Shown here: positions 12,817-56,698 of the stretch, piece by piece
Layout: each line of letters begins with the position of its first letter
Position numbering within the stretch: position 1 is the stretch's first letter
Assembly (NCBI GenBank): GCA_037447655.1
Contig: JBBHKE010002188.1
Location: 1-64,000 of the forward strand
Direction of reading: 5' to 3'
DNA: 64,000 bases
Source: Zygnema cylindricum
Lineage: Eukaryota > Streptophyta > Zygnematophyceae > Zygnematales > Zygnemataceae
Notes under the pieces: model-generated
Told to the model about the DNA's origin: nothing
Databases searched by the model: none
The model's input: the letters and a program-made list of their open reading frames with translations, nothing else
Made by a program: the position numbers and the translations under genes

Positions 12817-12843
12817 GACGAAAAACAAAGGAAATCGGCAAAC

Positions 12844-12873: not shown

Positions 12874-12916
12874 TTTTTGACCATCAACGTTTGAGCTCGA
12901 CTTCGGAAGCTCCTGC

Positions 12917-36516: not shown

Positions 36517-38140
36517 ATGCCTAGAACTCGCGGAATAGAGTGGGAGCATGTTAAGGCTCCAGACGGAGGGCTACTTGGAAACAACCGAATATGTATCTGT
36601 ATCTACTACAACTTTGAATACAATGGTCAAGCAACAAGGATTAGAAACCACCTTCTTGGGAATGTGAAGAGTGGAGGAATTAGAGCTTGCCATTTATGTC
36701 CGGACGAGGTGAAAGAGGAGTTTACTGCATCGGAAACTGAGAGAACTTCTCATGGCTCTCAGAAACGTGTCATATCTGTTTTGGATGATCTCACCAAGTG
36801 TCTTGGTGGATCTAGCCAACCAATAAGGTGCAATGTGTTCAAACAAAAATAACAAAATTATTTCATAGGCATAACAAGAAAGAGGTAGATGTAGCATGGG
36901 CTAAGGCTTTCTTTGCCAACAACTTGCCGTTCCAACTATTAGATGACCCCTATTTTAAGGCAGCAGTGAAGAAGACCGGGGAGATAGGGGGTTCTTACAA
37001 GTTACCTCACCGGAATGCCATGAGAACTCGTCTCTTGGCAGAGACAAAGGCAACAGTAAAACAAGACTAGGGGAGCTACATGGAGACGTTAGAAGCCACT
37101 GGTGCCTCGATCACATCAGATGGATGGACAGCAATTGATGACACGCCTCTCATTAACATTCTAGCTGTCACCCCCAAGGGTGACATGTTTCTCACGGCGG
37201 AAGACACTAGTGGGCAAATTAAGGATGCTCATTACGTTTGTAATGTGTTAGAGAAGGGAGTTCTTGCGGTAGGGGTCGAGAATGTGGTGCAAGTTGTGAC
37301 AGATTCTGCCCCTGTGAACAAGGCTGCAGCCTCGCTGCAAGTGAGTAAATACCCTACCCTTCGATCACCTGGACGCCATGCGCTGCCCACGTTTTGGACT
37401 TATTGTTGGAGGATTGGGGCAAGTTACCATTTATTTCAACACCTGTCCGAGAGGGAAAAGAGGTGCTTAAATTTATTACCAATCATAACATGAGCTCTGC
37501 CATGTTCAACAAAATCTTAGCACTTCGGCTATTGAAACCTGGAGAGACGAGGTTTGCGACAAATTTCATCATGCTCCAAAGATTTTTACAAGTGAATGAC
37601 AGCTTGGAGTGCTTAATGTTTGATGATAGTTACAAGCAGTGGATGGGTAAGGCTGCATACAAGATCGAGGGGCTAAAGATTAAAGGTCACATTTTGAGCC
37701 CAACGTTTTGGAAGAGAGTGACGAAGGTTGTGGCAGTTTCAGAGCCGGTGGTGTCGCTAATGAGGGAGTGTGACAAAGGGGCCCCGAACGTGGGAAAGGT
37801 TTATTATAGTTTTTATACCGTTGGTCAGTTTTTGCAGAAGTCATCCATTTATGGAGGTGAAAGAAATTATGAAGCCGTACTGGTATTGGAAGAACTGAAG
37901 ACATCGTTCATGAGCAGATGGGAGATGGCCCAAAGTCCTATACATGCCGCCGGCTTTGTACTAGATCCCGAGTACCAAAGTGCTACCTATGGGCAGAATA
38001 AAAATGCAATAATAATGGAAGGCTTTGAAACAATGCTTGAAAAAATGTTACCAAACGTGGAGGAGCAGACAGAGGCTATCAAGCTCATGTGCTTTTCAGG
38101 CATACCTATATATCACCAAGGATTTCCGGGCCTTTTTTAC
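36517..38140 (+). pseudogene. hAT-superfamily (DUF659) transposase, truncated
   Basis: The reading runs in three pieces. 36517-36849 holds a degenerate BED-type finger (IYYNFEYNGQATRIRNHLLG, ACHLCPDEVKEEF; the first Cys pair is lost). 36858-37360 contains EVDVAWAKAFFANNLPFQLL and the DUF659 core (ITSDGWTAIDDTPLINILAV, VVTDSAPVNKAAASL). From 37385 there is CAAHVLDLLLEDWGKLPF, KPGETRFATNFIMLQRFL and VLDPEYQS. Lesions are a stop at 37068-37070 and frameshifts near 36850 and 37355. The C-terminal hAT dimerisation domain is missing because similarity stops near 38115-38140, where the gypsy LTR begins. Such proteins cut and paste hAT DNA elements; this one cannot be active. Confidence 0.8.
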
Positions 38141-39290
38141 CCTGTACGGTCGTCAGAGTACGGAGGAGTGAGTGCACCAAGCCGGAGGAGATCCTTGTAT
38201 TTCCTAAACCGAGCGGAACGCACTTTATTTGGCGCCAAACGGAGGCCGGATGACAAAGTTCTACCGTCTCAAAGATTGTAATTCCGTTATAGGGAACCAT
38301 TTGCCACCAGCCCCCGTGGGGGGTTACATTGTGGATTGCCACGTAACTTTCCGGATTGGCATTTAGATTATGCTGGTAGCCGTCAGTAGAAATTTAGTTC
38401 AGCCCCATCTAACTTTTTGTCCATTAATTACGTTAGGTCAAAGTCTGGGAAGTTAGTGTCATTTTCAGGATTTTGTCTTATAATTGTGGACCGAATAAGT
38501 ACTTCCGGCCGCAGATCTAGCTGCAGTCCGGAGCAGAACTTTTTGCCCCGAGCGTAGTACGGATTAATTTGTCTTTTGTCCGTTCAATTACACTTGCTGG
38601 CCGCTCATTGGTGAATAGCGTAGCTTGACTTTTGAACTTGCAATTTGACAAACTTTGAGGTATAAGGCACTTGAGGTCGAAAGAGACAAGTTGCTTTTCA
38701 GTACTGTCTCCTGCGAAAACCCTCAGAAATTCCAACAAACCTTCTTTTGGAGAATCTTTGTGTTATTTTTGACTTTATTGCCATCTTAGTTCGTGGATCT
38801 GTCTTGTGTGGAAATCAGAGTCCGGGCGGGTAGTTGGCACTATCTTCCTTTTTGGGTGATTTTGGGACTTTTTGCTGTTTGGAACCGGGAAGAGTCTTTT
38901 CGGTTTCGAGCAGCGGACATTGAAAGTTGCAGGAGTACCATACTTTTAACGAAACTCTCCAAGAGGGTTCTCCTTTCTCTAATTGTCATCGTTGATTGTT
39001 GGGGTATGTTAAGCTTGCTTCGCTACATTTCACATTTTCTATCTTTTATTCTCTTTCTGGGGCAGGGTAATATTGTTAAATCTGGAAAGCCAATCCTATA
39101 TATTTATATATATATCTACGTGATAGTGCATTTGTGTCTTCATCTAGAGTTTTCTTTGCTTTGGAGTTACGGTTCCGGAGTAAACTGAAACCCCCTGGAT
39201 TAGGACAATGGGTTTTGAGGGAACAAATGCTATAGACTTCCCGTAGACAACGCACAGTACTGAAAAGCCACCCTGTCTTCTCGGAGTAGA
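38141..39290 (+). mobile_element. Gypsy LTR, plus orientation (solo or inverted copy)
   Basis: This roughly 1.1-kb block matches the minus strand of 51138-50000 almost end to end. Shared landmarks run in the same order: tgtacgg start, aaacggagg, cacgtaac, gttagttcag, gctggccgctcattgg, acttgcaatttgac, TATA-like gtataaggcact, the motif cttttcagtactgtctcctg, gttggcactatc, tctggggcagggtaatattg and cacagtactgaaaagcca near 39262. It faces the opposite way to the gypsy coding region next to it. The right-hand end is approximate. Confidence 0.75.
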
Positions 39291-40086
39291 GGGGATAGGA
39301 GCTTTCACTTTGGAAGTCCTCTTTTTGAAAGTGAGCTTTAGTTTCATTCACCACTTTTTCCCTCGACACCTCTTTCATCATTGGGGGAGGAGAGACTCCG
39401 GATAACGGGTCCTGAGAGCAAGGTCGACCGGATAAGCCCATGCCGGAAGGGAAATCTCTGAGGTCTAAAGAATCGGAGCCCATGGAGACTGTTTTTAAAT
39501 CCCCAGCCAAGGAAACAGCTAGTGCTTCTCCTCTGTTAAAGGAACAATAGCGCACCACTGCACGCCACAATGCACAGCGAAAAACACCAAGGATCTTCTC
39601 GTAGCAACAGTAGGAGTACACGCCACTGACAAACAAAGTTGCGTTTTATTACTTGAAAGAGAGTACAAGGTTGCGCTCGCTGCGTAGGTCTATTCAAAGA
39701 GTCTCCTATTCACTAAGCCTACCTGACTATTTAAACTAGCTAGCTGCTAGTCAACCTAGTACTGTACAACTGTACACGTGGACCTTCACGGTAAGCCGAG
39801 ACAAATCCCCAAAATATCTTCTAGAACAATACCGTTCTATCTACATTCCGCGGCGTTGCCATACTGCTAAGCTGCGTTGCTCTGCTGCACTGCTATGCTG
39901 CTGCGCCACTAAGTGGCTATGTTGCTAAGCTGCTATATTGCTATGTTGGGCTGGTGCGGAATCGCAGCTACGCTGCTCTGACATCGGAACCATAGCAGCC
40001 TAGTTGCTAACTACTAAGTACCCAACTCCATAACCCTGTTAGAGTGCCTCCCACTAGGGGTTCAACATCCCGCTGAACCTTCTGTC
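39291..40086. other. Non-coding, 3' region of the gypsy element
   Basis: After the last pol-side stop at 40087 (minus) the sequence is non-coding. It includes a cluster of gctgctaagctgc/gctatgttgctaagctgc repeats at 39855-39960. A minus-strand open frame over 39076-39636 overlaps the LTR and matches nothing I recognise. Confidence 0.4.
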
Positions 40087-40884
40087 TCAGGAAAACTGCA
40101 ACTGCCGGAGTATACTGTACTTCTCTTCGCGGTACTCCTCGAATTCCTGTCGCAGGGTGTTGAGTTGGTTTTTGAGCTGCTCACATCGGGTCTCCAGCAA
40201 CGCAATATGATGGACTGCCGCTGCCAAACGTCTCCGAATGTTTCGCTCTCGCACTTGGTCCTTCCCCTCTTCCGGTACAGCCTCGGGACCCTCGGGTTGC
40301 GGCGGAATGGCCGACGGTGCAGGCTCCTCAGGTGCCAGAATTTGTGGTGATTCGGGTTCTACAAGTTGTTGTGCCTCTTCCGCCTCCTCTTCAGCCGGTT
40401 CTCACCTAGGTACCTTCCTTAGCTTCAAGGACGCATGTTTCCTAGCAGCTCGGGCCCGCTGCAGAGCGTTCTTTCTGGCCAGCTTGAGTGCCCGTACTTC
40501 AAGGGTGACCTCTGCCCGAGCAATGATGTCATAGAGTCGAACATACCACCGATGATAACGGCGGAGTAACTCGGGAACATCCACCCTGTACTTGTAGTTA
40601 TCCTCAACTACTTCCACCAACTGTAGGGCATGGGGGTTTAGCTGCACATAACCCTTGTGGTTGTTCCTGAGGTCCTTTGTTCTCATAAAATTCCAGGCCA
40701 GGTGTGACGGTACGGTGGCGGGGATAAAGATAGGATCCCCAGGTTTTCCCGTACGCCACTCCTCGGGCAACTCTTTGGGATCCCAATACAAGCGCTTCGC
40801 GAAGCTGAAGGCGAGATCCGGATGCTGTGTGTCGGCACGAAGTGGAAAGAGGTAATCAGGAATTTCCTCTCTCTGTTCACTCAC
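40087..40884 (-). pseudogene. Gypsy element 3'-terminal ORF, Glu-rich with coiled coil
   Basis: 266 codons in one frame with one internal TGA at 40402-40404; the natural stop is TGA at 40087-40089. The N-terminal part begins MSEQREEIPDYLFPLRADTQ with WDPKELPEEWRTGKP. The middle is VDVPELLRRYHRWYVRLYDI and a basic helix. After the stop come a Pro/Glu-rich linker and a heptad-like helix (LLETRCEQLKNQLNTLRQEF) predicted to be a coiled coil. It lies after the integrase in element order and may be the C-terminal tail of pol or a separate ORF. I know no family for it. About 100 bp upstream, the link to the integrase is replaced by an inverted LTR fragment. Confidence 0.55.
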
Positions 40885-40979
40885 CTCGGCCGTCTCCCTT
40901 TGGCTTTCTCAAAGGAGAAACACCTCGTCTCCACTAGGGTGTTGTGCTTCCGCATTTTTTTCCGATACTTTGACGATAC

Positions 40980-41275
40980 TCTCGAAGGTTTCTCCTTTCT
41001 CTAATTGTCATCGTTGATTGTTGGGGTATGTTAAGCTTGCTTCGCTACATTTCACATTTTCTATCTTTTATTCTCTTTCTGGGGCAAGGTGATATTGTTA
41101 AATCTGGAAAGCCAATCCTATATATTTATATATATATCTACATGATAGTGCATTTGTGTCTTCATCTAGAGTTCTCTTTGTTTTGGAGTTACGGTTCCGA
41201 AGTAAACTAAAACCCCCTGGATCAGTTGACTAGGTTTTAAGGGAACAAATGCTATAGACTTCCCTGATTACCGAG
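40980..41275 (+). mobile_element. Gypsy LTR fragment, plus orientation
   Basis: Almost identical to 38957-39229 (tctaattgtcatcgttgatt, tatgttaagcttgcttcgct, gttccgaagtaaactaaaac). It covers only the 3' third of the LTR. It sits between the integrase and the 3'-terminal ORF, in inverse orientation to both, so it breaks the element. Confidence 0.8.
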
Positions 41276-41278
41276 ACC

Positions 41279-42055
41279 CTAATCCCTTCCCCCCCCCCCC
41301 CCCCCCCACGGGTGGGGGGGGGGGGCTTCAAATTGAGACAACACTCTCTGCAAGAATGCGTCCGCGATTGCTTTGGACTCCTTTCGGGGAAGAACCACCA
41401 ATTCAATCCACTTAGAGAAGTGTTCAATCATGACCAGAACAAAACGATTCCCCCTCCGGCTAGTAGGAAGTGGTCCTAGCAGATCCAGTGACCATCTGTA
41501 ATACATCCCCCGGATGGGGAGGGAGTGAAGCTCAGTCTCACCCTTTTTGTCAAAAGTTGCTTTTACCCGGTCACAAGAAGGGCATGTCTGCACCACAGGA
41601 TTGACCTGGGCCCGCAACCCATGCCACCAATACAACCGTGTGACTAGCGAGGTGGTTCGTTTCTATCCGAAGTGCCCGCACTGCTGGTGAAGCCGAACAA
41701 TGAGTGTTTCTCGATCTGCCGGAGGGGGAACCACTTTCCTCGTCCCATGGCCCATTTTCGGAGAAGGATGCCTCGGTCCCTTTCGTAAGCCGCCATTCGG
41801 TTCTGAACACGGGACAGTTGACTTCCGGCAAGGTAGGATAGAGGAGAGCCCTTCTGGATAGATTGGAGGGAATCGCTGTCATTCCATATATCATTTCGGC
41901 CGGCTCCAATAGGGGCCTGCCCCTCTACATCTGCAGCAAAAGTTGGCAGTCCTCCTTCGGCCCGAGGCAGCCAAATAAAAGCAGAGGAAGCCTGGATAAG
42001 TCCCACGCTGAGCTCAGGGTCTTCGTCATGTCGTGCCCCAGTAGAGTCTGTGGTG
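41279..42055 (-). pseudogene. Gypsy integrase, N-terminal and partial core
   Basis: In minus direction the region upstream of the integrase reads IWLPRAEGGLPTFAADVEGQ and RMAAYERDRGILLRKWAMGR. After a frame change comes the zinc-binding H..H/C..C domain (LHQQCGHFGYKRT, then LYWWHGLRAQVNPVVQTCPSC). The DDE core starts WSLDLLGPLPTSRRGNRFVL and ..IEHFSKWIELVVLPRKES, so the first Asp is present. The sequence then breaks into the C/G homopolymer at 41325, losing the remaining catalytic residues. Integrase inserts the cDNA into host DNA; this copy cannot. Confidence 0.8.
41289..41325. repeat. C19-ACGGGT-G12 homopolymer foldback
   Basis: Nineteen Cs, a six-base spacer and twelve Gs. The integrase frame runs into this tract and loses similarity. 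It marks the junction between integrase and the inverted LTR fragment. It could be a real rearrangement scar or an assembly or sequencing artefact. Confidence 0.85.
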
Positions 42056-42191
42056 GAAGGGTCCTCTCCAATTTCTCAGTGACTGCGACAAGTTTGAGAG
42101 TTGGAGAGAGAAGTTAGAGATAGACTGCCTCGACTTCTATATTTCTTTTCAGACCTAGAAAATACTAATAAAACCATTAATTTCTACACTT
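42056..42191 (-). mobile_element. Copia LTR fragment inserted in gypsy pol
   Basis: 136 bp, read on the minus strand as TGTAGAAATTAATGGTTTTA to ..ctgagaaattggaga. It matches the first roughly 135 bp of the copia LTR at 53173-53040 (about 90 % by eye). It sits exactly where the RNase H frame (..DHQPLKWIMENSK) ends. Only the 5' end of the LTR is present. Confidence 0.75.
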
Positions 42192-43445
42192 ACTGTTCTC
42201 CATGATCCATTTGAGGGGCTGGTGATCCGTAATAAGGGTGAAGTGTACTCCATAGAGGTAAGGCCGGAAGTGCTGGATGGCCCAAACAGCGGCGAGTAAT
42301 TCCCCATGGTAACTGCTGTAATTCCCCTCGGCTCTGTTATTACTCCGGCTTGCGTAGGCCACTACATACTCTGCCCCTGCGTCGTCCAATTGAGCCAAAA
42401 CCGCTCCCAATCCGAACCTGCTCCAATCTTTATAAATGAGAAAAGGCCGCTGGTGATCGGGCATCCGGAGCACAGGATGCTGTTTGAGGGAATCCTTCAG
42501 GAATTGTAACGCTATCTGCAGTTCTTCCTTCCACTGCCACTCATGGTCCTTTCGCAACAATTGGTTCAATGGCTGAGCGTGGCTACTGAATTCAAGAATA
42601 AACCGCCGGTAATAGTTGGTAAGGCCTAGGAAAGTACGAAAAGCAAAAATGTCCTGCGGGGGTGGAACAGCATCTAGAGCTGCCACCTTAACCATGTGGG
42701 GACCCACTGTCCCGGGGGTCTCCTCGTGACCCAGATAAATAATTTTCTGCACCCCAAATATGCCCTTCCCCGGTTGACACTTCAAGCCCGCTGTTTAGAG
42801 TGCCCGGAGAACGATCTGTATATGCTCCAAGTGTTCTTCAAATGTCTTGGAGAAAATGATAACATCGTCGATATAACACCGTGCGAAATCAATTCCTCGG
42901 AGAGCCTCGTCCACGGCCCGTTGGAATTTGGCAGGTGCATTCTTGAGGCCAAATGGCATGTACAGCCATTCATATAGCCTGGATCCAGCCCAAAAAGCAG
43001 TCCTCTCTCCGTATTTAGGCTCCATTGCATTCTGGTGGAATCCATTTTTCATATCCAAAGTGGAGTAAATGGTGGCCCCAGCAAGAGAGTCGAATATCTC
43101 TTCCGGGGTAAGCATAGGATAACGGTCGGAGACAGTTGCCGCATTAAGCATCCGATAGTCCCCACACATCCGGAAATCTACAGTTTTTCCGGAGGAGTCT
43201 TTCTTTGGCGGGAGCACGGTTGGTGAGGCGAACCCATGTAGTTCTGTACTCCCCTGAACCAGCCCAGCTTCCACCAAAGTCTGCACCTTTGAAGTGATGA
43301 ACTCTTTCTCCTTGAAACTGAGAGGGTACTGTTTCTGCCAAACAGTAGCCGTGTCGTCGATCAAGTCAATCCGAAAAGGAGTCCCTTTATAGATCCCTAC
43401 ATCGGTGTCAGACCAGGCGAACACCTGCCAGTTCTCTTCTAACAG
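42177..43445 (-). pseudogene. Gypsy reverse transcriptase and RNase H
   Basis: Reverse transcriptase blocks in order are GLVQGSTELHGFASPTVLPP, VDFRMCGDYRMLNAATVSDR, IYSTLDMKNGFHQ, LYMPFGLKNAPAKFQRAVDE and the catalytic YIDDVIIFS (YIDD at 42864-42875). A stop lies at 42795-42797. The connection reads FLGLTNYYRRFI. RNase H follows (FLIYKDWSRFGLGAVLAQLD, where the usual TDAS is KDWS, and ITDHQPLKWIM). The frame is continuous with the methyltransferase and linker upstream apart from the stop at 43446-43448. Copying RNA to cDNA and degrading the RNA strand are the family functions. Breaks mean this copy is dead. Confidence 0.9.
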
Positions 43446-43448
43446 CTA

Positions 43449-43829
43449 GGAGAGCCGGGCCTTATGCTGTTGGTCTAGCTGTTCACCTATAGTCCAGTCC
43501 ATCTTCCCGGGTTCCACTGCCGCGAATGCTTTCGGTGGTCTACCCAAGAGAGAGATGTTGAAGGTCAGCTCTACCTGTGGGTCGGTCCCTTGTTCGGCTG
43601 TTAAAACGCTCCTGCTGACAACTTCCTCTAAGCTGTCCTGTTCTGAGACTCTGTTCCCCCCCACTAAGGAAACTCCAAGGTCCAGTGTGCCATTGCTCCT
43701 GAATTTTTCCCTCCTTGTCTCTCTCCCCCCCTCGAGCTTTAGAGTTAATTGCATGGCCAACAATTTTGGAGCTTGAAGGTATGTTGTCCGTGATTTTGGA
43801 GACTGAAGGCTTGAGAATGCAAGAAAATG
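43449..43829 (-). pseudogene. Linker between methyltransferase and reverse transcriptase
   Basis: About 125 codons in the same frame as the flanking domains. A basic stretch (GGRETRREKFRSNG) is followed by a region ending in QLDQQHKARLS. It includes VELTFNISLLGRPPKAFAAV. No domain was recognised. Confidence 0.5.
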
Positions 43830-44776
43830 TTTCAGCACCCAGGAAATTGCATTTAAATCCATGCTTTGTCCGATTAAACTGCACCTTTTTGAGGCTGATA
43901 CCCCTGGCGCAGCTGTGGTTCCCTGTTGAAACCCCATTGCTATTTCCCGTTCTGTAATATTCGTCGCTGTCCATGTGGCGGTTGTATTGTCAAAGATCAT
44001 TCCTGGTGCACCCTTCCGGTAAGCGTGGCTGTTAGGAAAAGATACCACAGTTGGTAGGGCCTTCCGTGGATATCCAGGCTTATTACAACAGAAGAAGGGT
44101 GTTTTGTCGACTGTGATCACCGGTGTGGCTATTCGCCCCGGTCCAAGGATTTGTTGGACCGTGATGTTAAGATCCGCAACCTGTGTTCTGAACAGCTGTT
44201 GGAGGATTGGAAGGGGAACCAAGTTGGTCCAATATGCCCGAACTCTGTGGGCTCTCGATCCGATCTGAGCTGCATCAAAAACTATGGGAGTCCCTAGAAC
44301 CTTGGTCACTTAGTTCCAACTGTTGACCACATGTTTTCTCTTATCATCTGTGGGGTGAACGTTCTCCAGGACGTACCCCAATGGTGTGTCCTGGCGTTCC
44401 TGTAACCCTGTTATTAGTCTGGTCATTTGAAAGAAAGTTTTGCTACGGACGTCCTGGTGTCCCTGGCCCTGTCCTGCTAACGAATACCCTGGCATGGCCA
44501 TCCAGCGACCACCAGGTCTACCCTTCCGAGCTTTTCCAAATGGGAATCCGTGATATTGTCCACATTCAAGGGAAGCGTGTGGTGAGAGTTGATCATGGCG
44601 GACACCGGGAGTTGTTGTGGGTAAAGTTGGAGCAGCTGTTGCAGGCGTTACTCACTGACTGCACGGGCGTCCGGGTCAATCTCTACTGCCGAGTAAGTTT
44701 CTATTTGGTATCCAGCTTTCAGGACGGCTTCCAGATCGGAACTAATGCTAGAAAATAGGGATAGAATTCTAAGTCC
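43830..44776 (-). pseudogene. C5-cytosine DNA methyltransferase domain inside gypsy pol
   Basis: About 315 codons with the canonical motif order on the minus strand. Motif I: GLRILSLFSSISSDLEAVLK at 44776, where the FxGxG glycines read Ser. Motif II region: SAVEIDPDA. Motif IV: DLVVAGWPCQG, with the catalytic Cys codon at 44493-44495. Then YSLAGQGQGHQDVRS. Motif VI: YVLENVHP, with the catalytic Glu. Motif VIII: AQIGSRAHRVRAYWTNLVP. Motif IX-like: RKALPTVVSF. Motif X: ITEREIAMGFQ, ..KRCSLIGQSMDLNAISWVL. Motif order and the AHRxRxYWxNL form of motif VIII suggest DNMT3-like ancestry. Such enzymes transfer a methyl group from S-adenosylmethionine to C5 of cytosine. Lesions: stops at 44648-44650 and 44310-44312, and a one-base frameshift just after PCQG (about 44484-44488). 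The domain is in frame with protease upstream and reverse transcriptase downstream, so it is part of the polyprotein. Confidence 0.88.
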
Positions 44777-44977
44777 TGAAAGCATGATTTGTAGTGACAC
44801 CAGTTGTCGATTAAAGTCTTTCCCTTTGTTAGGAACCGTTGGAAGTTCCGACCAGGGGACTTTTACTGCTCCGGGTTTTATTGCAGCCAAGCTCCTGTCC
44901 ACTTCCCGACGAAGTGTGGCCATCTGTACCAATCGGTTCTGATACTCCTTTCCCCACCGCTTGGAAATAGAGAATTG
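44777..44977 (-). pseudogene. Spacer between protease and methyltransferase
   Basis: About 65 codons in the polyprotein frame after the stop at 44978-44980. It includes a helical basic stretch (LVQMATLRREVDRSLAAIKP) and ends LVSLQIMLS immediately before motif I of the methyltransferase. No domain was recognised. Confidence 0.5.
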
Positions 44978-45712
44978 CTAGATAGAATCAGCGATATCGT
45001 TAGAGTATTTGAACAGCTGCAAGGGGGTTGAGGCAGAGAAGACGGGATAGCATCCAGACAGCGGAACACTCGTTTTTCCCCGGTTCCACAAATCCAAGGG
45101 GACCACCACTTTTGTTCCTTCCGGATCCTCAAGGTCTGAGAATGTAACTTGTTCCTTCCATACGCTCAACTCCATGTTCAACCTTGTCCACGTAGCCATA
45201 CCCAGCAAAATTTCAAATTGCTTACCTTCCACCACTAGGAAGGGAAGCCGAATCTGCACGTGCTGGCCTGCGTCGTCAGCAAATTCGATTTCCATAGCTT
45301 TTATGATCCCATATACTGGTTAGGTGCCACTGTTGACGGTGCTCAAGCATATGTCACTTGGACTGATCTTTGGCCGGAGTTCCTCGGGCATTTGTTGTAA
45401 CGCTGATGTAGTTATTAAGTTTGGAAGAGCTCCGGTATCCACCACTGCATCGTGGTACCCGCCGTATCCATTAAGTTTAAAATTTCCCGTCCTGTTGAGA
45501 ATAAGAGCCACCGAAAGGGCTTTATAATCCCTATCTGCCATAGAGGTTTTTGGTTCTGCCGACATGAAGACTGTCTTGGGCGGTTCTGCCAACGCAACCC
45601 TTTTCCTCCTAGTGTGAATTTCTTCCCCTAATGCATGAATGAGGGTTTCTTCGGGCAGATTGTGGGAGGAAGCCAGCGTTTTGACATGCGTCAAGGCGTA
45701 GGGCATTAAGTG
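44978..45712 (-). pseudogene. Gypsy aspartic protease
   Basis: The retropepsin active site reads DAVVDTGALPNLITTSAL (DTGA at 45428-45439). After a stop (45320-45322), the second conserved block is FEILLGMATWTRLNMELSVW, the usual I(I/L)LGxxW block of gypsy proteases. It cleaves the gag-pol polyprotein in active elements. Same frame as gag upstream and methyltransferase downstream. Confidence 0.82.
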
Positions 45713-47860
45713 TCATACTAGCATAACTGCCGGTTTGGAGGAAGGAGGGAGAGCTTTGGGCGATGAAATGGGTGAAACCTCGTCTTTTGATTTCTCGTGT
45801 TCCCCCCTCCCTGCTTTCTCACTCTCTGCATCAGAATTCCCCGTAGGAGGTGTAACTAGCGGATCTGTGGACGGTCTCTCAGCCATGTATTTGTCGAACC
45901 ACTCCTGATCTGTTTCAGTGGTTGAAGTTTTCATGTAATCTTCTAAACCGGGAGGAAGTTTCTTCGGAGCCGGAGGAGGCGGGTCAGTCGGCTTGAGTCC
46001 TAGTCCAATGTTACTGTTCAGAAGGATTGGTCGCGGGGTAAAGGATAAGAGACCTGTGGCTTTCCGACTGTGGTCCTTTTGTTCCATCGGTTGTTTATCT
46101 TTTCTTTGGGAGGACGTTGTAGAGCGCAGTTGCCTAGGACTGTCCCCTACACCAACGTTCCATGCTCCGGACAGAAATGTTCAAGCATGATGAACCTTTG
46201 GAGGCTCCATATCCCAACCCATCAGGTCATCATCATCTCCACCCACCGTGGTCTGCTGCTCCAGTTCTGCTAGCTTTTATAGCAGTTCTTGTTTTTGTTT
46301 CTGCAGTTTCTGTGCCGGCGTAAGAGGTTGGGGAGTGCGGGCAGAGGATCTCAGTCGGAGAGCGGCAAGTTCTGTTGCCAAAGCGGCCAACTGAGTGCTC
46401 TGTTGCTGAATGATATGTTCCGGTGTCAGTCTGCTGGGACCCGGTTCATTTGGAGATCGTCCCCAGGGATACAAAAGTTGCAGTGGCAGAGGATTAACTG
46501 CAGTTTCCCATTCGCCAGTAAAGAATGCATACTGCATCATCTCCTTCGGAACCCCATTTTTCCGAAAGCATTGCCCTTCTTCGTGGCCCATGAACCCACA
46601 AGCTTCACATTTTGACCCTTCAGTAGTGTACTTCCCCCTTAGCTCATTAGAGATTTGAGCGTCATCGAATTTCGGAAGTCGGATTTGTCTCAACTGGGAT
46701 TGAGACATTTTGGCGGTTTCAGAACGTGGAGTAGGTTTATAGGTTTCCTTAGTGACCGGGGTTCGGTCTCCTCCTCCGCCTCCTTGCTTGCGTTCTTGCT
46801 GTTTCTTTGTTCTTTCCGCACGCTCCCTTTCAAACTCCTTCAGCTTGATGGCGAGTTCTGGTTTGAGCTTTCGGGGGCACCTCTTCCATCCGTGACCGGG
46901 CTGGTTACAGTTCAGGCAGTCGTAAAGAAAAACTTTTTCATCTCCTCTCATTGCAGGTTCTGGTCGGGCATCCGCTTCCTATTTCCCCTTAAGCTTCCGC
47001 AAAGCTTGCAGTTCTGTCTGTTCGTCGTGGCTGAGCGATGTTTCCCCGGCGAAACCTGCAAAGTTGGCTCTGGATTTCCCGGTAACAGCCTTTTCTCGTG
47101 CCTCGCTTTTAACAAAATGATCATACAATTTCATAGCAGCCAATGAAATTTCTTGAGCTGTGGGATTTCGATTGTGTATAGCCTGACTGGCACTCCAATT
47201 GTCCAAAGCTGCCTGTCCCGTTGGCCCGAAGGAATTTCGAACAGCGACATAATATTTGGTGGCCATAGCTGGTGTATCGATGGTGGACAGTTTGGTCTTC
47301 TAGCAGAGGCTGGAGAGGCGGTTGAACAGCGTTTGGGGAGTTTCATTCTTCAAACAGCGGAAGTCTGTGAACTCCTTGATGGCAGTTTCGTTCCTTTCTG
47401 TGTAAAGGAGTCTCCAAGCGTCCAGAAGAGTGGTACAGGGATTAGGATTGGCAACCATCCGGGTGGCCGCTTCGGCTCCCCGTACAGCCTGGAGGTGGTT
47501 GACATAGGCCCTGCCTTGGGCCTGAAGTTTCATATCCATGGTGAAAGTGGGGGTGAGAGGGGCTGCGGCTGCGGCGGCCAGGTCGGCTGCTGCCTGAAGA
47601 GCCTCGGCGTCCAGATCCGGATCCGATATTTTGATACTGGGGGGCATCAACAAAGGTTGACGCTCCTTGTAATCGGCCAAAGCTCCTCCGGCTAGATAAT
47701 TTACCATCATCGGAAACAGGGTTGTTTCAAAATCTGCTGGAATGGCCCCTCCCCTGTATTTGTTGATTTCAGATTGGGTGAACAACTTCCACAGCAGTTC
47801 GAAATCAGAGAAAGCGATTCCCGAGCTATTCTTGTAAAGATCCTTACGTCCCCCATTCAT
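45713..47860 (-). pseudogene. Gypsy gag with two zinc knuckles
   Basis: The frame opens with MNGGRKDLYKNSSGIAFSDF at 47860. A capsid-like helical region follows (YLAGGALADYKERQP, LLDAWRLLYTERNETAIKEF). Then come a CCHC knuckle CLNCNQPGHGWKRC near 46920, a Lys/Gln-rich linker and a second knuckle CEACGFMGHEEGQC near 46590. The last part is acidic and Pro-rich (DDDDLMGWDMEPP; TDPPPPAPKKLPPGLEDYMK). In-frame stops are at 47300-47302, 46979-46981, 46277-46279, 46181-46183 and 45713-45715, with no frameshift. Gag packages the element RNA. A second, less standard knuckle in one gag is worth noting. Confidence 0.8.
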
Positions 47861-48030
47861 TTTTCCTCCTCTGCAAGGTTGGTGAACTGTAAAGAGGATG
47901 GTCCGGTTGGGCTAACAAACTAAACCGGTGAAATTACCCCTGGATCTGCGTCGTTTGGCTCGGGCGCGCCTCCTTCTCCGGTAGAGGGAGCGGTCTGACG
48001 AGAGATGGCACTCCCCCCCACTGAGAAAGT

Positions 48031-49929
48031 TTAGGTTACCAGTGGGATAGTGAGATGACCAGTATCTCCCTGGAGTTGACCCTTGGGAAACGAAGAGCTT
48101 ATCACCTTAGGAAAAGCTGCCCGAAGTTCTGCTCCCCTATACCCAAGAGAGGCCCGTTCCTCCCAGTGAAGTGTTTCCACCGAGGGAATGTGGAGAATAG
48201 GTTTAGGCACCGATGGTACTTCAGGGATTGGTGGAGAAGGGGATGGAAATGACCGAGGACTACGAGGGAAAGGTGTCTGTCTCCGTGTACGCCTTTTGGA
48301 GGTTTTTGGTGGAGGAGTTCCTTCGCTGGAACCGGGAGAACGTCGGTAAGGAGGAGAGTTGGCAGGAACGTCGTACTTGTAGGGTAAGACGGGTGGTCCC
48401 GGTGACCCACGGACTGCAGCGGCAGGAGAAACAGAAGGCGAAGGAGAGGATGCCTGAGGTGGCGATGGAGGAGGAGTAGTAAGTCCCAGGGAAATGTGTA
48501 GTCTTTGGTCTGGTTGTAGCTGTACCACGGCCTCCACAGTAGAAGATCCCTTGACCGAGACAATGGTAGAGAGATCTGTAGCCGCGGTTACCGGATTACT
48601 CAGCAAATCTGCAACCAACCCCTTTTTGTTAGATCTTGTTGTTCCCCCCCCTTCCCGCTGAAGAGGGGACTCCGGTCTATGTTCCGAAGAAGTCTTGGGA
48701 GATGGAGTCCCAGTAGGGGCAGTCTGCTCGGTAGATTGTCTCTCAGCAGAGGGCCCTGTCTCTCTAGGAACAGATCCTGGTCCACTAAGGATTCCCCCTG
48801 ATTTCCGTCTCGCCTCCCTAATTAGGAACATTTCTTGTTCTAGAGCCCTCTTCCGTTCTTCTTCTAGGGCCTCCCAATCTATGGTGACGGGTCCAGCCCC
48901 CGCCGTAGCCTTACTCTGGGATCGGAGGATCTCCACCAGTTTTTGCGTGATGCTTACCACCCCCGAGAGATCCACAATCCCCAAACCGGGTACCTCGGGG
49001 TCCGTAGGCCTCGAACGCCATAGTCCTTCGGATGGTCCGACATTTGGTGCGGAAGGAGACATAGAACTTGGGAAAATTGAGACAGAAGGAAAGAACGGCT
49101 CTTCTTTGACTAGGGGAGCAAATCGACCTTTGCTGTCCCGATGGTTGAACCAGAAATCTCTCTTGGGCTCATGTAACTTCCACTTGCTACTCCCTTCCTT
49201 GGTCCGGCCCCGAGAAGTTGCTCTGCCCCTAGAAGGTCTACTGGTGGCAGTTTTCTGAGATATGGTGGGCTGCGGGTAGTAAGTTGATGGTCCTCCCAGT
49301 TGCTCCGGTGCTGAGGTTGGGGAGCCGCTCTCCGACGAACTACTCAGTAACTCGACTACACCTCCCACTGGGCGTACCACCTTGGCTCAGTCTGACCTGG
49401 CCACTCGCTGCACCAACTCTTTCTTAACCTTAAACTCATGGAGATTATGAAGGGCTAAGATTTCCTTGCGACCTGGCTGGTGAGGGTCAGACAGAATCTC
49501 TAGATCTATGTATATCTCTGTTATTGGTGCCTTGGACCTGGTAAAGCGACCAATTTCGGGAAGGGGACCAGGGATCGCTTCCTTGTGTGCCAACCCCTTT
49601 CTACGACTTTTAGGAGAAAGGGGCGGCCTCTCCGCCCTCTCCGCTGCCCGAGCCCGGGCTGACTCGAACATAGTTGGAAAGTTCTCGGGGGAAAAGACAG
49701 GTGGAGGTGGAGGAGAGGGTCGCCTCTCTGGCTGCGTTGGAGGAGTTTCGACTGCAACCTCCGGAGGCGTCTCTCCCCTAAGAAACCACTCTACGTGTAA
49801 AGGGGAGCCAAAGGGGGGTACTTCCTCAGGCATCGGAGACTCTTCCTCTTGGGCCACCACTTCTTGTCTTTCCTGTTCTTCTGGACTAACACTTGAAGGA
49901 TCCCTATCCGAAGCGTCACCTCCGCCCAT
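48031..49929 (-). pseudogene. Gypsy extra 5' ORF (ORF1), proline-rich, function unknown
   Basis: About 632 codons upstream of gag, in a different frame, with one internal TGA (49387-49389). It begins MGGGDASDRDPSSVSPEEQE and is Glu/Pro/Ser-rich. Readable parts are a basic segment (ARARAAERAERPPLSPKSRR), ITEIYIDLEILSDPHQPGRK, then SRGRATSRGRTKEGSSKWKL and DFWFNHRDSKGRFAPLVKEE. A Glu/Arg helix (ALEEERKRALEQEMFLIREA) precedes a long Ser/Pro tail. A roughly 170-bp non-coding stretch separates it from gag. The length and a single lesion argue that it was a real protein. No domain was recognised; disordered RNA-binding or an adaptor are only guesses. Confidence 0.6.
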
Positions 49930-49999
49930 GACTTACACGAGCAGATGAGCTAGATCTCTCGGATAAAATACACCACCCTAAGCAGCTATCCTCTTAAAC

Positions 50000-51138
50000 A
50001 AAAGGGGACAGTGGCTTTTTCAGTACTGTGGTACTCCGCAGGAAGCCCACAAAATGCCACACTCCCATCTACTCTCCAAAGAATAGGAAGGAAATGAGAG
50101 TCGTCCGATCCATTCCGTAAAACTCCGGACAAACCCAAAGATGACCACAAGAGTGTGCAAATAACTCCCACGCAAAAATATAGAAATAACAAATATCGGC
50201 TTTTCAGATTAAACAATATCACCTTGCCCCAGAGAATGGAATTAAAGATAGAAATGAATGATAATGGTGAAGCGAATTCACATACCCCGGAGTGCAACGA
50301 TGACCAAACTCAGCAGAAGAAAACCTCACCCAATGGCCCCGAAGTCAGGTATGAGTCTCCCTCAACCCTCCCGGTTCCACCGCAAGGATCCGACAAGACT
50401 CTTTTTAGTTTCAAACAGCGAAAGTCTAAACCGCCCAAAGAGGAGATAGTGCCAACTACCCACCTGTGCTACGGTCTCCACAAAAGACAATCCAAAACAA
50501 AGATGGCAATAGAGTCAACTACACAATGCAACCGTTCTCCAACAGAAAGATTGATTTAATTCTCTGGGGGTTTTCTCAGGAGACAGTACTGAAAAAGCAG
50601 CCTGTCTCCTTCGGCCCCAAGTGCCTTATACAACCAGAGTTTGTCCTACTGCAAGTTCGAAAGTCAAAGCAATGTGACAAGCCAATCAGTGGCCAGCAAT
50701 TAGTATCGTACTGACATAAGACAAAACACACTTTACTACACTCAAGGCTAAAAATTAGACAACTGGTCCCGGCTGGATTAGAGGCCGAGGGTCCTTCTAT
50801 CACACACAAAATGAAACAAAGTTCTGACTCGACATGAAACTGCCTAACTTTGTCCCAACGTCATAAATGCTTTGCCCGGTGGTTGGGCCTGAACTAACAT
50901 CATACTGACAGCTAACAGTAAGATCTACGGGATAATCCCAAATGTTACGTGTCGTTGTCTAAGGTATCCCTCTACTAGAGCTACATAGAACACACACTAA
51001 AATGGATCAGACACTTTGCACCGGACTAACTCCTCAGTTCGACCTCCGTTTAAGGTGAACTAAATTGCGTAGTGTTCCAGGATGAAAATAGAAAGATCTG
51101 ATCCGGCTGATTGTCCTCTTCCTTCTCCCTAAGCTAGA
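50000..51138 (-). mobile_element. Gypsy 5' LTR
   Basis: About 1.1 kb upstream of ORF1, matching 38141-39290 in inverse orientation. Read in element direction it starts near TGTACGGACTCTAGC. It contains a TATA-like gtataaggcac, then cttttTCAGTACTGTctcctg, and ends after ..accacagtactgaaaaagcca near 50010. The CAGTACTG palindrome therefore marks both sides of a roughly 600-bp part. The start cuts into the gag of copia element B, so the gypsy is younger than that copia. The exact 3' end and primer site were not determined. Confidence 0.7.
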
Positions 51139-52075
51139 GTCCGTACAAAGTGGAATGAAGCCCCAGAACTCCAAGGAGTGCAAATGTGCCGAAGATGCAC
51201 ACGCGCTTGACATAGTGCCCAGGTTTCTTACAAAAATGACATAAACCTTTGGGAGCGCTTGGTCCGAACTCGTCAGTCTGATTTTTCTGCTCCCTCCCCC
51301 CATAGTTTCCGACCAGTTTCCGAGAATATTTGTTCCTCCAATCGGTCGCAGTTGCTAAGGCTTGGCCACTCTTTCCTCCCCTTCGGATCTGAATCCTATT
51401 CTCCCGAACGAGAATCATCCCTAACAGTGAGTTCCATATCCACCTTAAGTCTGGGAAGTCCAGCACACGGTTGACTATGTTTTCGAACTCATCGGGTAAC
51501 TTCATCAGTAAACAGTTAACCTTTTCCTTTTCAGTAAAATCTTTTCCCGCACTCTCTAGCTCCATGAACAGTGTAACAAGCTCATTGCAAAAATCCATTA
51601 TCTTCCCCCCTCTGTATACATACTCCTTAACTTTCTGATCAGCCAACTGCTGTTGGTGAATCGTACCACTTCGGTACATCTCTATGAGAGCCATCCAAAG
51701 ATCGGATGCCCTTTCTACCTACAAATGAGGACATGCAAGTCCTTGAGTGAGATGGCGTAGGATGAAGTGCTTTGCCGCCATATTGTTGAAGTCCCAGGTT
51801 TCACTATCATTCTCCTCGTTCCTCGGAATAGGTGACATGAATGCCGAACCAGTTGCTATTGGTGTGGTCGCCTCCTTCTCCTTTCCTTTGTCCACCACCT
51901 CTCCTTCTTTTGTTTCCTCCGTTGAAGGTGGATCTTGTTTCTTGGTGAATCTGCTTCCTCCAAACCCTGGAGGAATTCCTAGACTTGATGGACGCCCCGA
52001 CCGTCCACTCACTATCCCCCAAAACCTTTTTTCGCATAGAGCTCTTATCATCATACTTTCCCATTATATGAAGCC
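51139..52075 (-). pseudogene. Copia element B gag, truncated
   Basis: Minus-strand pieces 52064-51719 and 51694-51220. They contain MMIRALCEKRFWGIVSGRSG, then MALIEMYRSGTIHQQQLADQ, LPDEFENIVNRVLDFPDLRW and the zinc knuckle CHFCKKPGHYVKRVC. They are homologous to element A gag (55689-54600). A stop or frame change near 51715 separates the pieces. Similarity ends just after the knuckle, where the gypsy LTR starts. The product is the UBN2-type gag of a Ty1/copia element. Confidence 0.8.
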
Positions 52076-52109
52076 AGTTCTATTAAAGATTGGTACCCTA
52101 GAGGGTGGG

Positions 52110-53173
52110 CCCATAACCTGAAACTCTAAGACCTCCATAAGTCCTCAGAGTGGACAACTTCCAAGAAGCCTCTAGGATAGCCCTGACCCCTTGGTGTTTT
52201 AGCAAAAAGAACTGCCACCGTGGCAGACAATAACTCTGACCAACTTCACCTTTGTGAAGGCAAGACTCCCCTGATTCGATAGCAAAAAAAATCTCTGAAT
52301 TTGCTCCTCTGAGCAGTAAGTTATGGAGGGTCAAAGTTGACCTTTTGTATAGAAGCTCTCTAGGAGAGAGGGTCCTATCTCCTAATTTTTCTAAGTCATA
52401 TCTCTCTCACAGACATTATCTACTAATGTACGGAGCCAATCAGAATATAGTTGCGTACACAAAAGTACAGGTGTCGGTGTACTTTCTGTACGAACACTGT
52501 ACGACATGGCCTTAATGTCGACACGTGGTATGTTCGGATTCGCTCCCTTAATCCTCGGAGATGTCGCGATCCAATGTCATTTCGCCACGTGTCATCCGAT
52601 GTTGCGATGACCATAAACCGCCGAAATCCTCTTCTGCGATCTCGGCGTTAATTCCGGCTGTCCGATTAAATTCACATTTAATCGTAGCCGTAATAACTAC
52701 ATGCGCGGTATTCGTTTCATTAGAGAAATAAATGCGCGGTATTCGTTTCTTATCCCTACCGTAATCCGTACTTTTACAATACTAGATCTATGTATCTCGT
52801 AAACAGTTATAGTTAAATGAATTATCCTATTTGATAATGTTTAATTAATTATCAAACCATATAGTACGTAACACTAGTTCTAGACTTAACGGCTAAGGCT
52901 ACCGTCTACCGGCTGTCTGTCGACCGGTAGGTACCAGGATCAAATCCTGTGACCAGCATATACCTTTTAGTAAATAAACCCCAAACTAATATATATTTCT
53001 CGTAAACCTCTGGATACCCTAGGTAGCCATGGCTCTAGCTCCCTCTCCAATTTCTCAGTGACTGCGACAAGTTTGAGAGTTGGAGAGACAAGTTAGAGGT
53101 AGACTGCCTCGGCTTCTTTCTATATTTTTATTTAGACCTAGAAAATACTTAAAATGGACCATCAATTTCTACA
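52110..53173 (-). mobile_element. Copia element B LTR
   Basis: Read on the minus strand it begins TGTAGAAATTGATGGTCCAT at 53173, exactly where element A pol stops. It shares the blocks cttgtcgcagtcactgagaa, gccatggct and, near 52925-52960, ggtaccaggatcaaatcctg (+ strand) with the other two copia LTRs. The 3' part (52260-52330) carries ttttttgctatcgaatcagg, as in the others. The 3' boundary is approximate. A gag follows at 52064. Confidence 0.7.
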
Positions 53174-54597
53174 CCCTGAATCTGCAATCACGGTATCACT
53201 CATATCTTTTTCGGGAAAAACAGAGTTCTCCTCACTCTCGGACTCAAACGTGATTCTTATCTTCTTAGTATATTTAAAGGGGTTTATTGACTTTCCTTCA
53301 TCCATGACAACTAGGTGTTTTACCAGAATGATATCTTGCTTTGCCAAGTCATAAACTCTATATCCCTTAACATCCTCATCATATCCCAAAATATATCCAG
53401 GTTTTCCCTTAGCATCAAGTTTCGAGTTTTTCTTATCCGTATCTAAACTGTAAACTTGACTACCAAAAACTTTAAGGTGAGAGATATCTGGTTTTCTTCC
53501 AACCCATCTCTCATAAGGTGTCATACCTTTGATTGCTGATGTGAGGACTCTATTTTTAATGTAATTGGCACAGTTCATGGCTTCTGCCCAAAATCTCTTT
53601 CTTATTTTCTTGTCAGCCAACATACTGCATACACTACCTACTAGTGTTCGGTTTAGCCTTTCTGCAACACCATTTTGTTCCGGATTATGTGGTATAGTTT
53701 TCTGGTGTTGAACTCCCTCATCTCTTAAGTATTCCTCAAATTGGTTAGAGGTATACTCTCCCCCATTATCACTCCTTATTCTCTTAATGGGGGTTCTATG
53801 CAACTTCTCACTCCAAGCTTTGTATTATTTGAAGTAAGTTGGTGTTTCTGACTTTGTTTTTAGAAAATAAACTCTAGAGTATTTAGACCAATCATCAGTG
53901 ATTGTCAACATATATCTTTTCCCTCCAACTGAGGGTACCATTGCTGGTCCCCAGATATCTGTGTGGATCAAATCTAGTACTTTTCCCCCCCTATATGTGG
54001 CGGCTTTGGGAAAAGGAAGTCAGTGAGTTTTTCCTTGGGCACAACCACTACAAATATCCACCATTTCATTATCACTGAAATGAATGCCTTCTACCACACC
54101 CAGCTTCTTCATCTCCCTCAACCTATCAAAATGCACATGCCCCAACCGCTTATGCCAAATCATCAATATTGGGCCACCAACATTGTAAGCATTCTTCTTT
54201 TCATTACTCATGTTAAGCCTAAACATTCCTTAGCTACCCTTATCTGCAGTGAAGTAAACTTCATCCCTATACTTGGCTGTAAAAACTCCCTTTCTAGTGA
54301 AAGTATCAAACTCTTTGTCATCTATCACAGATGTAGAACAAGATTTTTACTCAGCTGGGGAATATAAAGCACATCTGAGAAAGTGAGAATAGAAGTCTTA
54401 CCCCCCACTAAAACTTTCAGGTCAGTTGATCCCACTAGATCTGTAGTAACAACTCTCCCATCCCCATACTCTATTTCTACAGTAGGGATTTTCCTTAACT
54501 TAGTGAAAAGGTCCTTGTCACGACACATATGCATGGATGCACCTGAGTCGATGATCCATCCTTCCTGTGGAGCTTCCCGACTGCTCCAAGGGCACAC
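53174..54597 (-). pseudogene. Copia element A protease and integrase, truncated
   Basis: Protease: GWIIDSGASMHMCRDKDLF and DVLYIPQLSKNLVLHL (54597-54325). GAG-pre-integrase zinc domain: IWHKRLGHVHFDRL..GVVEG..CSGCAQGKTH (54226-54020). Integrase core: DIWGPAMVPSVGGKRYMLTI, then IRSDNGGEYTSNQFEEYLRD, HNPEQNGVAERLNRTL and GMTPYERWVGRKPDISHLKV. The D, D and E of the core are all seen. Lesions are a frameshift near 54300, a TGA at 54020-54022 and a TAA near 53825. At 53174 the sequence is cut by the element B LTR, and the reverse transcriptase is not found in the window. Confidence 0.88.
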
Positions 54598-55689
54598 TTT
54601 TGTCTCCGAGGGATCTCTTTCTCCTCCAGACTCTCGTCAAGAAGAAGCTCCCCATCCTCCTTAGAGGACTCGTCCTCGGTGTCTCCTATCACCTTTGTGA
54701 ACAAAAGTGCCTTTTTCTTCCCTCCAGAAGAACCCCCTCTTTGGTTCTCTTTGAGCCTCAGCTCCGCCAGCTTGGCACAATCCGCAATAAAGTGCCCTGG
54801 CTTTTTGCAAAAATGACATAGGCCCTTTGGGGGCCTCGGTCCTCTAGGTTGGACTCTTTCTCCTTTGTATGGTTTTTTCGGTTCCGGTCTCCACCTGTCC
54901 CCTCCGGCGGCTAGAGCTTGAACGCTCTTTCCACCTCCCTTGATCTCCATGGTATTTTCCTGCACAAGTATCATCCTGACCACTGTATTCCACTTCCATG
55001 AACTATCAGTCATTTCTTGTACTCGGTACACTAAGTTCTCATACTCGTCTGGTAACTTCATGATGAGAGTGTTTACTTTCATTTTCATTGTGCCTGTCCA
55101 ACCAGCACTTTCCATCTCCATATACAAACAAGAAAGATCATTGCAATAATCTAACATCTTTCCTCCTTTCTACGTGTAACTCACTAGCTTTTGCTCAGCC
55201 AACTAGAGTTCTTGAATGGTACCAGCTCTATAGATCTCCACCAAACTCCCACAACTCCTCGGCCTTGTAAATATTAAGGTGAGAGGTGGCCAATGCTTCA
55301 GTGAGATGCCTTAGAATGAAGTTCTTGGCAGCCATGTTTATGTCTTCCCACATTTGAACATCGTTCTCCACTGTCTTCACGACCGCCGCTCTTGGTGCCA
55401 TGGCAATAGGGGTGAGGGGTGTCTCCTTCCCTTTCCCCTTTTGAGACACACTACTGTCCCCATCATCTGCCTCCTCCGCGGAAGCAGTCGCTGTTGCAGA
55501 AAACCTTACTCCTCCAAATCCTAGCGGAGTTCCCGAAGGTGGACGTTTCACTTGTCCACTGACGATACCCCAGTATCGTTTTTCACACAAGGCTCCCATC
55601 ATCATGGCTTCCCAATAGATGAACCCAGATCCATTGAAAGTGGGCACCCTAGAGGGTGGGCCCATAACCTGCAATTCTGTGTCCTCCAT
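54598..55689 (-). pseudogene. Copia element A gag
   Basis: It begins MEDTELQVMGPPSRVPTFNG at 55689, with GFIYWEAMMMGALCEKRYWG typical of copia gag (DUF4219/UBN2). It continues at 55157 with LDYCNDLSCLYMEMESAGW, LPDEYENLVYRVQEMTDSSW and the knuckle CHFCKKPGHFIADCAKLAEL. An acidic stretch (EDESSKEDGELLLDESLEEK) leads toward the protease. A frame change near 55165-55230 and another near 54580 break the protein. Confidence 0.85.
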
Positions 55690-55704
55690 TGGACTACAGA
55701 AATA

Positions 55705-56698
55705 GAGGAAGCCTCTAGATAATTGTTAACTAGCCCACTTTAACCCACAGCCACTGCTGCCCAAAAAGTCACACTGACAATTTGACTGCACCCCTGTGCA
55801 GCCTAGACTCCACTGAGTCCGTAGCAAAAAGAATCTCTGAAAACGCCCAACCAGGTGATAAGTTATGAGGCAGTAAAAATGTCAATTTGTACAAACTCTC
55901 AAAGGGAGAGGTGACTGCCTACCAAAATTTTCTAAGTCCTGATTTACTCTAATAACTTCTATCTACTGAAGTACGGACCAATCAGATTACTGTACCGTAC
56001 CAAAAAGTACTACTGCCGGTGTACCTTTTGTACGGCCTATGTACGACAAGACTATTAAGCGGACGCGTGTCTCCTTTTCACTCGTCCGTACATTCCTCGG
56101 AATTCCTATGACCGAATGTCATCTCTCCACGTGGCCCAAGGTCATGCCACGTCACTAAACGCCAAAGTAACTACTCCGGGATTTCAGCGATGATGTGCGC
56201 CGTTGGATTTGCAACGAGACGAAATCTTGGCCGTAATAAATACTTGCGCGATATTTGTTTCGTTGTCGAAACAAAATGCGTGGTATCCGTTTTGAATTGG
56301 TACATTCATAAAACTGTATCCATGTACGCCGAACACAGTTTTCGTTAAATAGATTTGCTCCTTCCTAAATATATATATATATATCTATCACATACTATAG
56401 CATTTAGCATTGGTCCTACTCTAGTAGGATAAAGCTGACCACTATCGGCCAGCTTGACGAACCGCAGGTACCAGGATCAAATCCCGGGTCCGTCAGGTAT
56501 ATTTTTAGTAGCCTTAAAAATATCTCCCTGTTGAACTAAGGCAGCCATGGATCAACCACTCTCTCTATCCTTCAGTGACTACAACAAGTATGGGAGCTAG
56601 AGAGAGGAGGTGTAGGCAGGCTGTCTGTCCTTTTCCTTTTTCTTTTATACTAACATTTTAAACCTATAAAATACTCTAGAAATCTATTAATTTCAACA
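55705..56698 (-). mobile_element. Copia element A 5' LTR
   Basis: Starts TGTTGAAATTAATAGATTTC at 56698 (minus) and ends shortly before the gag ATG at 55689. The middle has an AT run (56365-56385). 56460-56500 reads ggtaccaggatcaaatcccg on the + strand. The 3' part contains ttttttgctacggactcagt (reverse strand of about 55812-55835). Its 3' boundary is approximate. Confidence 0.72.

Follow-up and report, generated by a model that had tools for sequence, protein, structure and literature searches.

A predicted DNMT3-type cytosine methyltransferase within the Pol of gypsy-type retrotransposons in Zygnema cylindricum

Hosts silence mobile elements by DNA methylation, so an element that keeps a selected DNMT3-type enzyme in many of its copies makes its gain from that enzyme testable. 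According to the accessible text of PMC12344493, certain DNMT3 members have been reported to lie within retrotransposons of streptophytes and dinoflagellates. The closest published element is KnitGypsy-Dnmt3 of Klebsormidium nitens, and an earlier note on the present locus was right to assign it to the kind described by de Mendoza et al. in 2018 (PMC5890265). By the accessible text of that paper, KnitGypsy-Dnmt3 shares three features with the elements analyzed here: a Dnmt3-type domain in the gypsy Pol frame, gypsy domains combined with DIRS-like repeats in the order A-coding-B-A-B (found here in two families, A and B), and purifying selection. A second relative described there, SymbioDIRS-Dnmt3 of Symbiodinium, also has a Dnmt3-type domain in Pol and A-coding-B-A-B repeats (PMC5890265).

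The window is a 64,000-nucleotide stretch of Zygnema cylindricum contig JBBHKE010002188.1. It contains a broken gypsy-type copy at 41322-51212 on the minus strand. The features, from the 5' end of the element, are:

50032-51212, minus strand: A block, the 5' end of the element, beginning TGTCAAGCGCGTG; 93.7% identity with the A block of the open-frame copy C1374
46277-49932, minus strand: Gag region in broken open pieces, the later part with CCHC-like motifs
44978-45712, minus strand: protease (PR) region with DTGA, in open pieces; Asp_protease_2 E 0.19
44978-44980, minus strand: TAG between protease and methyltransferase, marked by its conservation in family A
43779-44780, minus strand: DNMT3-type C5-cytosine methyltransferase, predicted from domain search and motifs, interrupted by stops and a frame change
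42795-43445, minus strand: reverse transcriptase (RT) with YIDD; RVT_1 E 1.7e-21, 94% identity to C1374
42177-42794, minus strand: RNase H; RT_RNaseH_2 E 2.5e-31
42063-42188, strand unassigned: short foreign repeat of about 125 bp within pol, matching window 53042-53128 and the C1374 flank
41279-42062, minus strand: first part of the integrase; Integrase_H2C2 7.3e-08, nucleotide match to C1374

The copy matches C1374 at the nucleotide level over 42188-49828 (91.4%) and, in the integrase, over 41322-42064 (94.5%); homology stops at 41322. All Pfam matches in the Gag region of the window are sub-threshold, and rve (E 3.4e-05) is under its Pfam cut-off as well. The protease of C1374, in which DTGA is present, reaches Asp_protease_2 E 2.1e-4 (22.3 bits, under the cut-off of 24.3). 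Within the 64-kb window we found no remaining integrase, PHD finger or B block, and of the repeats the 5' A block alone is kept. Motif I lies in the minus-strand piece 44648-44977 and shares its frame with GWPCQG (motif IV, at about 44486-44506). YVLENV lies in piece 44310-44651, and RAHRVRAYWTNL and the motif IX/X region in piece 43446-44309. Since motifs I and IV are in one frame and motif VI in another, the window copy shifts frame between IV and VI; it also contains several stops. The earlier note had placed methyltransferase motifs in a gypsy pol between protease and RT, and all of them were found there on the minus strand. Its statement that the domains share one frame apart from a late frameshift holds for the protease and motifs I/IV, but the TAG at 44978-44980 splits that frame, and motifs VI-X, RT and RNase H occupy another, which contains stops. 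We conclude that the window element is a dead gypsy-type copy, with a DNMT3-type cytosine methyltransferase at the start of its Pol. It is decayed, as had been proposed, and has open-frame relatives in the same genome.

Signs of cytosine decay in this copy are weak. CpG observed/expected is 0.64 in 41322-51212; elsewhere in the window, two stretches give 0.81 and 1.06. GpC is also lower in the copy (0.79 versus 0.91 and 0.87), and G+C differs between these stretches. Relative to C1374, C has changed to T at 7.4% of CG sites (57/775) and 4.4% of CHH sites (115/2630).

Other sequences surround the copy. Copia-type gag, integrase and zinc-knuckle fragments lie at 51134-55725 on the minus strand; because the gypsy A block starts beside the copia gag piece, the gypsy copy probably lies within a copia element or beside one. 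At 38075-41264 there are repeats akin to the A block in opposite orientation, and 39537-40756, within this region, shows 80% likeness to the 3.7 kb that separate two B blocks of C1374; this may be a non-autonomous relative. A piece at 37349-38281 on the plus strand has a weak match (24.8 bits, below cut-off) to DUF659, a domain of plant hAT transposons. Further away, at 9011-12921 on the minus strand, two open pieces form a host-like splicing-factor gene of TFIP11/STIP type (GCFC E 5.4e-80, plus TIP_N and G-patch).

The Pfam search that the earlier note proposed gave a divided answer. The separate window pieces yield one PF00145 match, which at 15.9 bits (E 0.0088) is below the cut-off of 22, whereas the open-frame copy C1374 scores 52.7 bits (E 5.8e-14). 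Used as a genome query, the C1374 domain (320 aa) recovers window 43779-44495 with 90% identity (E 2.3e-144). The best relative with a solved structure is DNMT3A, at 56 bits with a single sequence and 63 with a profile. The corresponding scores are 41 and 54 bits for DNMT3B, 25 and 32 for HhaI, 20 and 24 for DRM2, and 15 and 28 for DNMT2; no DNMT1 or CMT chains are among the PDB matches listed. Motifs I to X follow the standard order with the catalytic residues present; in an alignment of five copies with human DNMT3A, the catalytic cysteine is invariant, as are EN in motif VI and AHRxR in motif VIII. These features point to a C5-cytosine methyltransferase of DNMT3 type. The W of motif IV, to which attention had been drawn, is common to both families. 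Family B reads GWECQG at this motif (GSECQG in copy L005), and the E replacing P is the more unusual residue.

We searched the 352.8-Mb genome of the same assembly for related copies. PF00145 gave at least 123 matches (782 candidates, 123 scored), some of which may be host genes or other elements. The C1374 domain gave at least 126 matches (1830 candidates, 125 scored), the window among them, and the merged lists hold at least 211 distinct places on 185 contigs. An RT query gave at least 150 matches (3105 candidates, 150 scored). For 74 of the 150 listed RT places, the methyltransferase lists include a same-strand hit some 1.0-2.0 kb upstream. Eight upstream stretches were fetched from the other 76, and all eight carry the domain, four of them (L040, L043, L044 and L046) its later part only; at C961 the domain end is retained next to an assembly gap. 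The domain is at least partly present at 83/83 RT places examined of the 150 listed, namely the 74 paired, the eight sampled and C961. This agrees with the claim that the enzyme was built into the polyprotein and did not insert late, and the gypsy copies lacking the segment that could have spoken against it were absent from the 83 places examined of the 150 listed.

The search for intact copies, also suggested earlier, found open-frame copies such as C1374 and C1344. The order Gag-PR-DNMT-RT-RNaseH-INT-PHD occurs in open frames in two families; the window belongs to family A. In family B, C1344 encodes Gag(CCHC)-PR-DNMT-RT-RNaseH-INT-PHD in a single 2395-codon frame. Identity between the families is 42% in the DNMT domain (328 positions) and 47% from RT to PHD (1027 positions), and no protease likeness between them was found in this comparison. 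The simplest reading would be a single domain capture that predates the split between A and B. In IMG/VR, no viral relatives were found with a single sequence, and one locus at 29% identity was found with a profile.

Selection was estimated from median Nei-Gojobori dN/dS, with pairs of dS <=0.03 or saturated pairs dropped; the pairs are non-independent and differ between domains. Among close family-A copies the medians are 0.25 for DNMT (19 pairs), 0.175 for RT (15), 0.205 for RNase H (10), 0.17 for INT (6), 0.29 for PHD (6) and 0.78 for the linker (15). Diverged family-A copies, with dS near saturation, give 0.13 for DNMT (15 pairs, median dS 2.0) and 0.06 for RT (6). In family B, DNMT is at 0.26 (6) and PR at 0.38 (6); the family B linker, at 0.18 (16 pairs, median dS 1.7, near saturation), lies below DNMT, though in other pairs. 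The methyltransferase domain is under purifying selection, and the element has conserved the enzyme as one of its parts. The accessible text of PMC5890265 gives Ka/Ks < 0.2 for KnitGypsy-Dnmt3, a value that our close-copy DNMT median of 0.25 exceeds.

The most likely target of the enzyme would be newly made DNA of the element itself, methylated at insertion or earlier. We offer this purpose tentatively, as a suggestion that falls a little short of probable. The domain may instead be kept for a job other than methylating element DNA, such as a structural role in the particle, binding of nucleic acids, modification of RNA, or a slowing of the element that spares the host. RNA methylation, with reference to LINE elements, and slowed retrotransposition are both raised by de Mendoza et al., and the isolated KnitGypsy-Dnmt3 domain was inactive in yeast, where it produced no methylation (PMC5890265, accessible text). 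Its authors regard the yeast result as inconclusive because human DNMT3B also failed, and the SymbioDIRS-Dnmt3 domains do methylate CG in yeast (PMC5890265). In our elements, the E for the usual P in motif IV of family B leaves room for another job, but the invariance of the catalytic Cys and other core residues argues against it. We consider such a job rather unlikely.

Complete copies are arranged A-coding-B-GC-A-B, with ends TGTC...GACA. In family A, the A block (1186 bp in C1374) begins TGTCAAG, the B block of about 212 bp ends GCTCGACA, and the joint is B-GC-A. In C1344, of family B, A1 and A2 are each 931 bp and 100% identical, and B1 and B2 are 242 and 243 bp and 99.6% identical; the joint is B1-GC-A2, and A2 directly adjoins B2. 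A G-run precedes B1 in the family-B copies C1344, C1407 and C783, and AAGAGGGGGGGG or longer stands ahead of B in the four family-A copies displayed. We identified no primer-binding site. The A-start pattern occurs at 206 genome places (reversed control, 0). A1-A2 spacing is 10.97-11.09 kb at C518, C1393, C1508, C1769 and C2344. Resolved copies have A as their left end and B as their right end, in contrast to ordinary LTR retrotransposons, which carry the same full repeat at both ends.

Target duplications were scored on the flanks of A1 and B2. The family-A sample consisted of C1374 and nine copies, eight of the set having both ends (C507 and C518 fall outside), and the family-B sample of C1344 and ten copies, seven with an end not found; C1042 was left out on account of an outer A block with only 84% likeness to that of C1374. 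Exact 4-bp duplications flank 7 of the 12 resolved copies and are absent or imperfect in the other five. All four resolved family-B copies have them (C1344 TTGG, C704 ACTC, C829 AAGG, C1915 CCCT). In family A they are exact at C1508 (AGTG), C1769 (AATT) and C2344 (a run of A, weak), have one mismatch at C1393 and C519, and are lacking at C2183, C1836 and C1374. Neither of the two A-coding-B copies in which both ends are present, C544 and C783, shows a target duplication.

The 4-bp duplications around A-coding-B-A-B, together with the purine tract, suggest insertion by way of a two-LTR circle. Reverse transcription would start at the purine tract before B, and the LTR as made would be B-GC-A. 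A DDE integrase could cut the two-LTR circle at the palindrome GACA-GC-TGTC inside one LTR. Insertion of the circle with a 4-bp target duplication would then give A-coding-B-GC-A-B with a direct A-B joint; a one-LTR form would give A-coding-B. We lean slightly towards this route. Alternatively, insertions in tandem or one within another, or recombination of ordinary LTR copies, could have produced the arrangement with no permuted circle. C1374 carries B-3.7 kb-B-A-B, the A1-A2 spacings at C519 and C1836 are 14.5 and 17 kb, and some copies have no duplications, all of which would fit such events. We nevertheless consider them unlikely: the same form is present in two families only 47% alike in pol, in both, the direct A-B joint has the same position with respect to the purine tract, with the 4-bp duplications outside, and the K. 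nitens elements have been published with this repeat order (PMC5890265, accessible text).

In family A, a stop occupies the PR-DNMT site in 15 of 15 readable rows, 14 with TAG and one (L024) with TAA. These rows represent 13 distinct copies (12 TAG, 1 TAA), as L002 equals L026 and L006 equals L009, and their pol identity to C1374 is as low as 53%. The 3' context is CAATTC in every row except L018, whose next codon is a stop. We take this context to resemble the UAG CAR YYA readthrough type. An RNA hairpin past the TAG is weak and is absent from some copies. The C1374 frame stops at 1133, 3284 and 3518 are private, and several stops at 3680-3974, located at the Gag/PR reading-frame change, are shared. 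Family B has open frames without the UAG, and a stop before DNMT in L020 is private. The UAG is probably a programmed readthrough site, and its partial readthrough would allow the methyltransferase to be made and packaged along with the reverse transcriptase. Without readthrough, Pol would have to come from re-initiation or another transcript, or the host would decode UAG as an amino acid. Family B works without the stop, but a stop at one site in 13 distinct copies with a nearly constant 3' context makes these explanations improbable. The codons right after the UAG (QFPISK) lie in a frame that has no ATG at the joint, and a sense UAG would lead one to expect more TAG in the C1374 pol, in which there is no other among 1520 codons.

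The anatomy of the element, as described, is almost certain. Anatomy, UAG readthrough and an active enzyme together, purpose aside, form a reading that we regard as fairly probable. From the sub-threshold Pfam score of the window alone, one might suspect motifs that arose by chance, or a methyltransferase gene that entered a single dead copy at a late stage, but these readings are extremely improbable in view of the RT pairing, the open-frame PF00145 score and the dN/dS values, and are excluded by the related copies across the genome.

A PHD finger follows the integrase. It scores 39.6 bits for PF00628 in family B (cut-off 24) and 18 bits, below the Pfam cut-off, at the same position in family A. 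PDB relatives of the family B finger include PHF12, KDM5, BAZ2B, ORC1B and ATXR5. The rve integrase scores 46.7 and 46.3 bits in the scanned frames, and Pfam gave no match to the tyrosine recombinase PF00589 in the C1344 frame or the C1374 PR and pol frames. In chromodomain gypsy elements, a chromatin-reader domain follows the integrase; the elements here differ in having a PHD finger for the chromodomain and a methyltransferase in Pol. The finger may help place the integrase on chromatin. It is possible, and we propose it with reserve, that a gypsy lineage has joined a DNMT3 writer, dosed by the UAG, to a PHD reader, and inserts two-LTR circles via the LTR palindrome. The pairing of writer and reader constitutes a concrete targeting hypothesis. 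If the proposal is true, a DDE integrase alone yields the split repeats by which tyrosine-recombinase elements are otherwise recognized.

Several observations concern other parts of the genome. A 5743-codon frame at C961 proved to be an artefact of the assembly gap of N. At G000 C2592:70973-72614 (+), the usual order is reversed, with an RT match preceding a methyltransferase match, reflecting a rearrangement or two copies. Light-harvesting matches number 88, with dense gene clusters on both strands at G000 C519:3496-34847 and C2590:60644-75453. L090 scores best, among single-domain PDB chains, with those of Lhcb3 type (321 bits, 'Chlorophyll a-b binding protein 3'); the next LHCII chains score about 280 bits, and the highest-ranking row is 9vfj_2, a chain with several domains. 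We take 5xnl_3 and 8z9d_33 to be Lhcb3. For L089 the best single-domain chains are 7xqp_a and 8htu_U, presumably moss entries. In their accessible text, PMC2323573 gives Lhcb3 as land-plant-only and PMC3088898 lists Lhcb3-like ESTs from Klebsormidium, Chara, Coleochaete, Closterium and Spirogyra. The light-harvesting genes thus identify a streptophyte host, and the Lhcb3-like marker fits a land plant as well as a streptophyte alga. A search for rbcL in the genome gave 0 matches.

Among known enzymes, DNMT3A and DNMT3B have the same motif order as the predicted methyltransferase and are its nearest relatives with solved structures. Identity to them is about 30% over the aligned part, no ADD or PWWP match occurs in the scanned frames (that of C1344, and PR and pol of C1374), and the histone-reader-like finger stands here at the far end of Pol. 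DRM, the rearranged plant DNMT3, differs in motif order, which is unpermuted here, and DRM2 reaches only 20-24 bits where DNMT3A reaches 56-63. Compared with the published description of KnitGypsy-Dnmt3 (PMC5890265, accessible text), our elements occupy at least 211 places in two families and have the UAG, the PHD finger, the motif IV E of family B and the target duplications. The words PHD and readthrough are absent from the main text of that paper, to which, as distinct from its figures and supplements, this statement applies; the features set against KnitGypsy-Dnmt3 may be common to both. The literature searched by title and start of abstract contained no report of a UAG, PHD finger or circle route in such elements. 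DIRS elements are defined by a tyrosine recombinase; here rve is present and PF00589 unmatched. Likewise, SymbioDIRS-Dnmt3 encodes a tyrosine recombinase (PMC5890265, accessible text), whereas our elements encode a DDE (rve) integrase. The repeat anatomy and target duplications offer an explanation for DIRS-like repeats without a tyrosine recombinase.
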